Positions 2,924 to 5,573 of a DNA stretch of 64,000 nucleotides are shown piece after piece. The DNA is taken from contig NZ_LMFQ01000024.1 of assembly GCF_001426905.1 (NCBI RefSeq), positions 254,669-318,668 of the forward strand, given 5' to 3'. Made by a program: the position numbers and the translations under genes. The first letter of the stretch is position 1. Every line of letters begins with the position of its first letter. This stretch comes from Caulobacter sp. Root1455 (GTDB lineage Bacteria; Pseudomonadota; Alphaproteobacteria; Caulobacterales; Caulobacteraceae). Below the pieces are notes generated by a model. That model searched no databases. It was not told where the DNA came from and worked only from the letters and a program-made list of their open reading frames with translations.

Positions 2924-3664
2924 TCAGTCGTCGAACCTAAGCACAACGAAGCGGCGCCAGGCTCGACAATCCTCTGTTTGCGATACGACAGACAAGCCCA
3001 CATCGCGAGCCACGTCGAGAACGTCCTGCTCGGAGAAAGCGTATCCGGACGAAACTTGTTCTGCGTCGTGCTCCGCGCGGGCGTCGTACACCGTGCCGGC
3101 TTCACCGTCACCGCGAGCAAAGAAATCGCAGTGAACCGTTCCGCCCGGTTTGAGCAGGAAGCGCGCCAGGCGCAGGAGGCCCTTCGCACTCTCGTAGTTC
3201 TGGTGGATAAAGAACTCGCGACCCACGACCGTGTCGTAGAGGCCGGCATGGCCCGCCAGCAGATCATGGTCGTTGATATGGACGAAGCGGCAGTTCGGAT
3301 GGGCGCCACCCCGGGCCATGGCCAGGGCTACTCGGGAGACATCAATTCCGAGATAGCGATCGACGACGAACCCCAAGTGCTTGCCGAGCAGGCCCGGACC
3401 GCATCCAAGTTCGACGACGTGTCGACCAACGATGCGGTCGGCCGAGGCCCAGATCCGAAGCTGCACTGCGAAGGTGTACGACGGATGGCTTGCCAAAACG
3501 GCGTCAAAGACTTGACGCTCGTCCAGGCCATCCAGGGCGCCGACGTGCTCTAGACAATCGGCCTCGACGACGAATGGATTCACATCCTCGGTGAGAAGAT
3601 AGGCTCCCCACTCTCGGTCCCATCGCGACGCCACTTCTTGCGGAATGGTCACCAGATCAAGCAT
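2924..3664 (-). CDS. class I SAM-dependent methyltransferase, target unknown
   Basis: A 246-residue protein with a Rossmann methyltransferase core: motif I is VVELGCGPGLLG at about residues 83-94, followed by an acidic motif II residue in YLGIDVS (Asp near 108) and a late motif in LLKPGGTVHCDFF. The ~80-residue N-terminal part has no recognisable domain. The gene is alone between the two tRNA-Thr copies, faces back toward the intact tRNA, and its DNA is visibly less GC-rich than its surroundings. This fits horizontal acquisition. The substrate cannot be inferred. Confidence 0.85.
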   Translation of the reverse strand: MLDLVTIPQEVASRWDREWGAYLLTEDVNPFVVEADCLEHVGALDGLDERQVFDAVLASHPSYTFAVQLRIWASADRIVGRHVVELGCGPGLLGKHLGFVVDRYLGIDVSRVALAMARGGAHPNCRFVHINDHDLLAGHAGLYDTVVGREFFIHQNYESAKGLLRLARFLLKPGGTVHCDFFARGDGEAGTVYDARAEHDAEQVSSGYAFSEQDVLDVARDVGLSVVSQTEDCRAWRRFVVLRFDD

Positions 3665-3801
3665 AGGTCGAGCCTACAACTACGCGGCGAAGGCTCCAAA
3701 CGTTTTCCACGTCTCCGCGCGGCTCTGGAAGACGACATTCCCCGGAATGCCCCCGGAGCTACCGGAGTCGATACGCCGCAAACCAAGGCCAAGTAGGATG
3801 T

Positions 3802-3868
3802 TGAGCGATCAAGCTCAGCGGTTTTGTAAACCGAAGGTCGGGGGTTCAATCTCCCTCATCCGACACCA
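3802..3868 (+). pseudogene. degenerate tRNA-Thr copy / att-like direct repeat
   Basis: Bases 3816-3850 are identical to bases 2379-2413 of the intact tRNA-Thr, covering the anticodon arm and the start of the T-arm. The match continues with one inserted and one substituted base through the CCA at 3868. Upstream, AGCTCAGCGG also matches the D-arm, so the copy looks like the tRNA with ~10 bases deleted between its two internal CAGCGGT repeats. It cannot fold as a tRNA. It could be a decayed duplicate or the distal attachment site of an element that used the tRNA 3' end. Confidence 0.8.
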
Positions 3869-3948: not shown

Positions 3949-4173
3949 TCAGGCGCCCAGCAGCGCCTCGTAGCGGGCGACGTTCTCGGCCAGCCACTGA
4001 CGCAGCCGCTCCAGCTCGCTGATGTGAACGTGGGTCTCGTCCTGCACGCCGCCGTCATCGGTGCGCGAACCCACCTGCAGCTTGCCGCTGCGCAGGGCTT
4101 CCAGGCGTTCGTCGAGGGCCTCCTGCTCGGCCTTGTGTCGCTCGACGACGCGATTGATTTCGGCCTTGTCCAT
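3949..4173 (-). CDS. small coiled-coil hypothetical protein
   Basis: A 74-residue protein starting MDKAEINRVVERHKAEQEAL. The ATG at 4171-4173 has GGAG 8-11 bases upstream; the longer open frame upstream has no protein-like character. The product is charged and helical, with a heptad-like first half, a polar middle (GSRTDDGGVQDETHVH) and a second helix (ISELERLRQWLAENVARYEA). No enzyme motif, membrane segment or signal peptide is visible. It is probably a small cytosolic helical-hairpin protein. The function is not recognised. Confidence 0.7.
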   Translation of the reverse strand: MDKAEINRVVERHKAEQEALDERLEALRSGKLQVGSRTDDGGVQDETHVHISELERLRQWLAENVARYEALLGA

Positions 4174-4279
4174 ACTCGGTCTCCACTGCGGCCGCCGACA
4201 ACGCCGGAACGGCTCCACGCTTGAGGACCAAGTGTACGGCGACGCCGGACGCGCGTCGATCAAAGGCCTCGCCAAGGCC

Positions 4280-4307
4280 AAAAAAAAGCCCGGCGCGAGG
4301 GCCGGGC
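4280..4307 (-). terminator. rho-independent terminator of the small RNA candidate
   Basis: GCCCGGC (4288-4294) pairs with GCCGGGC (4301-4307) across a 6-base loop. On the minus strand the hairpin is followed by eight T (4280-4287). No protein gene on that strand ends here, so the terminator itself argues for a short transcript. Confidence 0.85.
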
Positions 4308-4362
4308 AGTCATTAGGGAGGAAACGCCCAGGAAGGGCAGGAGCGCCAAGGGCGGCTCCACG
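4283..4362 (-). ncRNA. putative trans-acting small RNA, ~80 nt
   Basis: On the minus strand a promoter-like pair precedes ~80 bases that fold into three elements. The first is a hairpin built on GGAGC/GCTCC. The second has a GCCC/GGGC stem with a TTCCT loop. A single-stranded stretch containing TTTCCTCCC follows, and then a strong terminator hairpin with eight T. Pyrimidine-rich TTCCT and CCTCC exposed in loops or linkers are a hallmark of alphaproteobacterial small RNAs that block Shine-Dalgarno sequences. No convincing ORF occupies the stretch. The 5' end is inferred from the -10 position. Confidence 0.65.
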
Positions 4363-4368
4363 GGTTGA

Positions 4369-4396
4369 TAACTAGTGCGTCGGGATGGCCAATCAA
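4369..4396 (-). promoter_or_regulatory. putative sigma-70-type promoter of the small RNA
   Basis: Minus-strand TTGATT (4391-4396) and TAGTTA (4369-4374) are separated by 16 bases. The predicted start is near 4362. Both hexamers are unusually AT-rich for this DNA. Confidence 0.5.
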
Positions 4397-4399
4397 GGG

Positions 4400-4664
4400 C
4401 AAGGCCGCCGCGCCTTACGGTGAAGCTGCTCTGAAGCCCTGTTTGTACACAATGCATGCAACCCGATCGGCCGTGCCCAAACCTCGGGCGCGACGGTTTC
4501 CCGCGAAGGGCGAAAAAGCCGGCTCCCGCCGCTCTCCGCCGGCGGTGAGTCGCATCCGCGGAGCCTCGCCCCCGTCCGCCTGCCCGAGCGGAAGGCCCGA
4601 CATGGACAGCCGAACCCGGGCCGGTTAAGCCTTCCGGCGCACGAACGGCCGAGGCGGAAGACCG
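4400..4664. other. intergenic, no gene seen
   Basis: This is the gap between the small RNA promoter and the esterase operon. Short open frames exist on both strands but have no protein-like composition or ribosome binding site. It presumably holds the promoter for the esterase-DUF188-arfB operon; I could not assign its boxes. Confidence 0.5.
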
Positions 4665-5573
4665 ATGAACGCGCCCCTGACCAGCGTCTTCGCCGAACGG
4701 GTGGCCGGCGCCCACCGCTTCGGGCTTGAACGGGTCCGCCGCGCTGTGCGCTTCGCCATCGCCCATCGCGACCGCAAGCTTCCGCGCCTCGCCCAGATCC
4801 GCAATCTCGACTATCCGGCCGCCAGCGGAAAGCGCGCCGCCCGGCTCTACGTGCCGATGCGGGCCCCCGTCGTCGGCCCCGCCATCCTGTTCTTCCATGG
4901 CGGCGGCTTCGTGATCTCCGACATCGAGACCCACGACGCCCTCTGCCAGCGCCTGGCCGACGCCGCCGGCGTCCGCGTCGTGTCGGCCGCCTATGGCCTG
5001 GCCCCCGAGCACCCCTTCCCTTCGCAGATCGACGACGCTCGGGCGGCGTTCGCCTGGCTGCTCGACCAGGCCGCCGAGCTCGGGATCGATCCGGATCGCC
5101 TGGCCGTGGCCGGCGACAGCGCCGGCGCCTATCTGGCGGCCACGGTGGCCAACGAGGCCAACGTCCGGCGGGCCGGCGCGGTGAAGGCCCAAGGCTTGTT
5201 CTATCCGCTGGTCCACCTGGACGACGAGATCTGGGCTCAGACCCTGCTGCGCGACGCCCGGCTGATCGGCCGGCTGGCCGTCGCCTACATCAACGTCCAG
5301 TTGGCCAACGCCCACGCGCCGTCGCTGCTGGACGCCGTCGGCCCCGCCACGCCGCCGACCTTCCTGGTCAGCGGCGCCCTGCTCGACCCCGTCCATCCCG
5401 ACGCGGTGACCTATGCCCGTGCGCTCGAGGCGGCGGGCGTGCCGGTCGAGCTGAAGGCCTATCCCGGCCAGGCCCACGGCTTCGTCAACTTCACCCACGT
5501 CCTGCCCGCGGCGGTCGAAGCCGTCGCGACGCTTGGCGCCCGGCTGGGGAAGGCGCTACGAGACGGCGCATGA
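4665..5573 (+). CDS. alpha/beta hydrolase, hormone-sensitive-lipase (HSL) family esterase
   Basis: A 302-residue cytosolic esterase. The oxyanion-hole motif HGGG is at about residues 78-81 and the nucleophile elbow GDSAG at 150-154 (Ser152), followed by YLAATVANEA as in the HSL family. The acid (ALLDPVHPDA) and the histidine (GQAHGFVNF, near residue 271) complete the triad. The length is standard for the family. Its stop overlaps the next start by 4 bases (ATGA), so it is translationally coupled to the DUF188 gene. It probably hydrolyses short acyl esters; the natural substrate is unknown. Confidence 0.93.
   Translation: MNAPLTSVFAERVAGAHRFGLERVRRAVRFAIAHRDRKLPRLAQIRNLDYPAASGKRAARLYVPMRAPVVGPAILFFHGGGFVISDIETHDALCQRLADAAGVRVVSAAYGLAPEHPFPSQIDDARAAFAWLLDQAAELGIDPDRLAVAGDSAGAYLAATVANEANVRRAGAVKAQGLFYPLVHLDDEIWAQTLLRDARLIGRLAVAYINVQLANAHAPSLLDAVGPATPPTFLVSGALLDPVHPDAVTYARALEAAGVPVELKAYPGQAHGFVNFTHVLPAAVEAVATLGARLGKALRDGA

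Follow-up and report, generated by a model that had tools for sequence, protein, structure and literature searches.

The minus strand of the window (the whole stretch of 64,000 nucleotides from Caulobacter sp. Root1455 that was analysed) very probably carries the gene of a trans-acting small RNA (sRNA) of about 80 nt that belongs to the alphaR8 family (Rfam RF00519, the MmgR/SisA-D type). The gene would be transcribed leftward from a promoter of its own to a terminator of its own, and its 10-mer, UUUCCUCCCU, would cover Shine-Dalgarno sequences with the help of Hfq, a repression that the sponge RNA CrfA would relieve on carbon starvation; it appears to be an extra, lineage-restricted copy of the family. 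The RNA family, its mechanism and its occurrence in multiple copies in Caulobacterales are already in print, and the locus adds one further family copy. No description of this particular locus was found in the open-access literature, a scope outside which most subscription journals lie.

A probable alphaR8 sRNA gene on the minus strand

The RF00519 (suhB/mmgR, alphaR8) model matched the minus strand at 4345-4273 with 52.1 bits, above its gathering score of 41; with the whole window searched against all 4227 Rfam families, E was 7.5e-8. The match was not truncated and covered model positions 1-77 of 77. RF00519, suhB, is the 'Makes More Granules Regulator RNA' and corresponds to the alphaR8 group. 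The initial annotation had proposed a base-pairing RNA of about 80 nt on the general alphaproteobacterial plan, which the match supports. It had left undecided whether this was a known or a new Caulobacter RNA; the Rfam search that it suggested returned a known family (MmgR; SisA-D in C. crescentus), of which the locus is a further copy.

C. crescentus has four alphaR8 siblings, SisA-D, which share the core UUUCCUCCCU and act in an Hfq-dependent manner; SisA, whose gene adjoins that of N-formylglutamate amidohydrolase (FGase), represses mRNAs in trans by pairing upstream of the start codon (PMC12559287). SisA-D were also enriched with Hfq, listed under CCNA_R numbers (PMC11005374). The window RNA has the core by which the family is recognised in PMC12559287, an unpaired UUUCCUCCCU after a weak hairpin, and like the family it ends in a terminator, here of seven G-C pairs followed by T8. 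The parts of the gene are as follows.

4281-4361, minus strand: alphaR8-family sRNA gene (MmgR/Sis type), about 80 nt; RF00519 match and conservation in relatives
4391-4396, minus strand: -35 element TTGATT; TTGA invariant in 10/10 genomes with the locus, fifth base in 9/10
4367-4374, minus strand: -10 element TAGTTATC; 7/8 columns invariant in 10/10 genomes
4340-4359, minus strand: 5' hairpin abutting UGCCC; MFE fold, pairs exchanged in a compensatory way among sibling classes, sixth pair a C-C mismatch in the window class
4325-4339, minus strand: hairpin UGCCC-UUCCU-GGGCG with loop UUCCU at 4330-4334; MFE fold
4315-4324, minus strand: 10-mer UUUCCUCCCU, single-stranded, the anti-Shine-Dalgarno core that is also complementary to CrfA; same sequence as the alphaR8 core in PMC12559287, unpaired in the fold from 4361
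4315-4330, minus strand: 16 nt with complementarity to the loop of the CrfA encoded in the same genome; the longest such run when G-U pairs are counted
4280-4307, minus strand: intrinsic terminator, stem 4307-4288 (7 G-C pairs) with a loop of 6, T8 at 4287-4280; terminator scan and covarying pairs

All elements read by the initial annotation (a promoter-like pair, two hairpins, CCTCC, a TTCCT loop and a terminator) are thus present on the minus strand in the order given there. When the stretch 4362-4273 was folded, none of 200 shuffles was as stable (z = -3.05), and for 4345-4273 two of 200 were (z = -2.77). The core UUUCCUCCCU is unpaired in the MFE fold of 4361-4281, and extending the fold to 4273 pairs two core bases weakly. 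Terminator-like sites are by themselves not rare, two overlapping ones having been found against 0.7 expected. Of the two anti-Shine-Dalgarno motifs that had been proposed, only CCUCC, which lies within the 10-mer, is backed by the experiments in relatives cited here; the loop reads UUCCU in 43/47 aligned sibling rows. A first-loop motif has been predicted to contact targets in MmgR, for which no direct target is known (PMC7143759).

Promoter and start site

The -35 and -10 elements are separated by a spacer of 16 nt. A scan with an E. coli-type consensus found no promoter in 4150-4700, and the promoter call consequently rests on the conservation of the two elements in relatives. The promoter-like pair of the initial annotation is upheld by this conservation (TTGA and seven of the eight -10 columns invariant in all ten genomes) and was not picked out by the scan. 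Its start near 4362 agrees with the conserved promoter, and we now place the start at about 4361. For SisA, a pairing footprint of G33-C45 and a point mutation, C40G, are published (PMC12559287). For a copy of the FGase-linked type, these positions would require a 10-mer that starts at base 37; in the window RNA, beginning at G4361, it starts at base 38, which agrees with the conserved -10.

Genomic setting of the locus

The sRNA gene lies between two protein genes.

3949-4173, minus strand: 74-aa protein gene downstream of the sRNA, marking the locus in relatives; no Pfam family at E <= 0.001
4665-5573, plus strand: alpha/beta hydrolase gene (Abhydrolase_3), divergent, upstream of the sRNA

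We examined the genus in a set of 75 genomes, 15 of them less than 90% complete or more than 5% contaminated, and scored the window locus as present where a DNA match reached into the promoter and the 74-aa gene adjoined it. By this measure the locus occurs in 10/75 genomes (own genome included). It was not found in the other 65, and the window RNA is therefore not a core regulator. At least one family match over the cut-off was obtained in 68/75 genomes. An eleventh genome (G040) has a 74-aa protein that is 55% identical, with neither TTCCTCC nor the sRNA in the 4 kb around its gene.

The hydrolase neighbour is present at 78% identity or more in seven of the ten carriers, about 4 kb away in G016, and gave no match at E <= 1e-40 in the carriers G015, G031 and G019. 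A search with the hydrolase returned six loci. The sixth was a distant Clostridiales match; the others, 78-93% identical, lie on contigs of Caulobacter sp. BIN40, UNC358MFTsu5.1, AP07, LF-bin-218 and UNC279MFTsu5.1. In the fetched stretches the sRNA was found near the hydrolase in four of these five contigs, all but AP07, where there was none within 3 kb on either side.

The steady company of the 74-aa gene invites the reading that the RNA is a cis-acting leader or attenuator of that gene, with a conditional terminator and with CCUCC sequestering the Shine-Dalgarno sequence. The two are on the same strand, and the RNA is found upstream in 10/11 genomes having the 74-aa gene. However, the RNA lies at a variable distance from the gene (67 to 456 nt), three more copies over the cut-off are present elsewhere in the same genome, and the relative SisA acts in trans (PMC12559287), so that we regard a leader as very unlikely and retain the trans-acting sRNA.

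Two further observations concern the DNA on the downstream side. When L039, L040, L042, L043 and L044 are compared with the window, the gap from sRNA to 74-aa gene falls into two sizes: half of the ten carriers, among them the one with the window, have 67-99 nt and the remaining five have 401-456 nt, which suggests an insertion or deletion between the terminator and the gene. Farther on, window positions 3816-3854 repeat 39 nt of a tRNA-Thr gene (2356-2430; the part repeated is 2379-2417) with 97% identity at a distance of 1437 bp downstream. The repeated piece sits in a weak tRNA match (3794-3864, 30.2 bits with a cut-off of 29) that ARAGORN did not call, and a methyltransferase gene (2924-3664) lies between the tRNA-Thr gene and its partial repeat, an arrangement that resembles the scar of a small integrated element.

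Conservation of the locus and its siblings in the same genome

Between the window and the nine other carriers, identity amounts to 96% over the RNA (4362-4282), 93% at the -10 (4374-4367) and 87% at the -35 (4396-4391); it is 62.5% for the spacer, 61% for the DNA upstream (4460-4403) and 44% for the DNA downstream (4279-4200). Judged from these alignments, an RNA and promoter kept amid diverged surroundings is the pattern of a gene maintained together with its promoter. The initial annotation had named absence of the TTCCT/CCTCC elements and hairpins from close relatives as the result that would speak against it; they are conserved, and the 10-mer is identical in 10/10 carriers.

Four family copies over the cut-off are present in the own genome.

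C24:643307: 67.6 bits
C12:65609: 58.9 bits, FGase-linked
C24:258941: 52.1 bits, the window copy
C7:923: 47.3 bits

Each of the ten genomes searched has one family copy at a distance of 134-769 nt from an FGase gene. The own genome has FGase genes at C12:65904 and C21:358014, the former 221 nt away from the sRNA at C12:65609. This adjacency identifies C12:65609 as the SisA counterpart and leaves the window copy, at C24:258941 and away from FGase, rejected as the SisA orthologue. Four genomes of about 4 Mb (G045, G005, G069 and G072) have four family matches each. Among the matches listed for them none reaches into the window promoter region, and the 74-aa gene was not found in them; on these two grounds the window locus looks like an extra, lineage-restricted sibling. 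An observation apart is that one of the five family matches of G015 (L078, G015:C2:345836-345910, 63.8 bits) is on a separate 420-kb contig, possibly a second replicon.

Such a restricted copy might also be a decaying or silent duplicate of a SisA-type gene without a function of its own. In favour of this, the locus is found in just 10/75 genomes, and FGase-linked copies (those of the own genome, G005, G010 and G015) are among the best matches of the window copy outside its own class. The divergence of spacer and downstream DNA around a nearly unchanged RNA nevertheless runs against decay, as do the retained -35 and -10 and the invariant 10-mer, and we give this reading as slim a chance as the leader. 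A maintained sRNA gene fits these data better.

Sibling alignment and covariation

In the fetched loci GGGCGTTTCCTCC occurred 86 times (some places were fetched twice), 62 of the occurrences being distinct, and 47 were aligned. Left out were 11 near-duplicates of retained rows and four copies of one class (L004, L072, L080 and L082, referred to as the palindrome class, see below), whose 5' part does not align. Row ends were placed by hand in five cases. MAFFT did not align the 5' arms correctly, and a script was therefore used to count the 5' hairpin off the alignment.

Across the 47 rows, terminator and central hairpin were paired in 470/470 cells, and the pairing fell to 7.6-62.4% when the 3' partner was displaced by one to three columns. 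In the terminator, three of the six counted pairs change on both sides, which rests on four cells and was reached by 0/500 shuffles. The central hairpin provides no evidence from covariation, as its four pairs are invariant in 47/47 rows. The 5' hairpin, which is unpaired in the RF00519 model as aligned here, gave nine distinct arm pairs with 51/54 cells paired. Its pairs 2, 3 and 6 change in a compensatory way among sibling classes, and 37 of 5000 re-dealings of the 3' arms do as well. In the window class, pair 2 is G-C in place of A-U, pair 3 is A-U in place of G-C, and pair 6 is a C-C mismatch. The hairpin covariation for which the initial annotation had suggested looking is thus seen in the terminator and the 5' hairpin, and not in the central hairpin, which never varies. 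The 10-mer is intact in 46/47 aligned rows, and its end is altered in the four omitted palindrome-class copies.

Near the 5' end all 47 aligned rows have GUG followed by A or G, and many rows of the other sibling classes have a frame of 14-15 codons from it, but a very short leaderless peptide read from this GUG was rejected as having virtually no likelihood, since the frame differs between classes and meets no stop within the aligned RNA in 9/9 window-class rows; a leaderless start, moreover, leaves no Shine-Dalgarno sequence.

The palindrome class owes its name to a perfect 14-bp palindrome, TGACAACGTTGTCA, found upstream in 4/4 of its loci read. In the own genome (L004) it occupies G000:C7:886-899 and starts 37 nt before the fourth alphaR8 match. 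The same genome has four perfect and 12 one-mismatch sites of this kind. One of them precedes the earliest possible start of a glucose-6-phosphate dehydrogenase frame by 4 nt, and a one-mismatch site lies 120 nt upstream of the purine-rich TGGGAGGAAA in front of the ATG of a GH3 glycosidase gene. The palindrome resembles a sugar-regulator operator of the LacI type, which might act on an anti-Shine-Dalgarno sRNA as well as on a possible target of it.

Complementarity to the CrfA sponge

CrfA is the demonstrated sponge of C. crescentus SisA-D (PMC12559287). The sequence GGGAGGAAA with C, G or T in front of it, a complement of nine core bases, was found at 22 sites in the own genome and at 16 in G045. 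Comparison of the surroundings of all 38 sites gave two conserved pairs. One of these (L152/L135, 42 nt) looks like tRNA from its sequence. The other (L120/L121) is 90% identical over 174 nt, and its loop matches the published CrfA footprint, G49-C63 (PMC12559287); the own-genome member scored 158.6 bits with the CrfA model RF01527 against a gathering score of 38.

L120 1557-1423 (G000:C1, about 554,700), minus strand: CrfA sponge RNA; RF01527, 158.6 bits

The loop sequence is GGGGAGGAAACGCCC; as in PMC12559287, it has 15 bases from G to C. A CrfA-like match was obtained in 73/75 genus genomes, the two without being 61% and 74% complete. Such a match is also present in genomes that have just one alphaR8 match, or none, at E <= 1e-4 (e.g. 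G004 and G037).

The longest complementary run between CrfA and the window RNA is 16 nt with one G-U, and was reached by 1/1000 mononucleotide shuffles of CrfA. At the level of sequence the window RNA therefore has the CrfA complementarity of a sponged sibling. This local measure was used because full-length duplex energies did not discriminate: for the four own-genome copies they were 0.7 to 2.6 SD below those with shuffled CrfA (1.6 for the window copy). The own genome also has an Hfq gene (113.3 bits).

Proposed mechanism and candidate target

From published experiments on close relatives we infer Hfq binding, repression by covering Shine-Dalgarno sequences and release by CrfA on carbon starvation. 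Hfq would present the unpaired UUUCCUCCCU of the window RNA, which would pair with purine-rich Shine-Dalgarno sequences and thereby repress the translation of transporter and metabolic mRNAs. Carbon starvation would induce CrfA, which would pair with the same 10-mer, lower the level of the sRNA and free its targets.

The exact complement of the core, AGGGAGGAAA, occurs four times in the 5.08-Mb own genome and only once at a site that is not an sRNA. This site is at the Shine-Dalgarno position of a PNPOx-like gene and ends 2 bases before the ATG (AGGGAGGAAACGATG), which makes the gene a candidate target. Shine-Dalgarno sequences are purine-rich in any case, and the site is for that reason weak evidence. 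With a single exact complement outside the sRNA sites of the own genome, imperfect pairing would be needed at most targets. The pattern AGGGAGGAAAC-N(1-9)-ATG is present in 18/75 genomes, the gene behind it having been inspected in the own genome.

As an additional, lineage-restricted sibling with its own promoter, the window copy probably adds a separate input to a shared pool sponged by CrfA. Whether siblings are redundant or bring new inputs is left to future work in PMC12559287. The window locus offers a natural comparison: the 10-mer is the same and the sponge is present, yet locus and promoter are confined, as searched, to one set of Caulobacter, which allows a direct test of whether extra siblings are redundant or bring new inputs. 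An sRNA gene read from raw sequence has in this way been confirmed and placed in the network of sibling sRNAs and CrfA sponge published in 2025.

Comparison with known sRNAs

SorX (RF02784) and the Betaproteobacteria toxic sRNA (RF02278) bear a partial likeness to the window RNA in the CCUCC stretch and the terminator; both scored below their cut-offs (SorX 25.5 bits, with a gathering score of 46.6; the toxic sRNA 23.2 bits, with a gathering score of 50). AbcR sRNAs, of the alpha-r15 family, are reported to be longer (114-120 nt), and no AbcR-named family was among the five Rfam matches at E up to 1 for 4100-4700. MmgR of Sinorhizobium meliloti (RF00519), described in the review PMC7143759, is closer: the window RNA matches the full-length model and has three stem-loops, with a length of about 80 nt against 77 nt. 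S. meliloti is reported to have no copy besides MmgR, which has been connected with polyhydroxybutyrate and nitrogen control; the window genome has four family copies.

With SisA-D the window copy shares the 10-mer UUUCCUCCCU, the weak hairpin before it and the terminator after it, as well as several copies per genome and a CrfA with a complementary loop. Unlike SisA, it is placed between the 74-aa gene and the alpha/beta hydrolase gene, with no FGase gene beside it, and it is unlikely to be the equivalent of SisB, SisC or SisD. We lean towards regarding it as a further alphaR8 locus of Caulobacter in none of the SisA-D positions. Lineages would then gain and lose sibling loci that differ in their promoters, with no change in the 10-mer or the CrfA sponge, and each lineage would feed its own inputs into one shared, sponge-controlled anti-Shine-Dalgarno pool.
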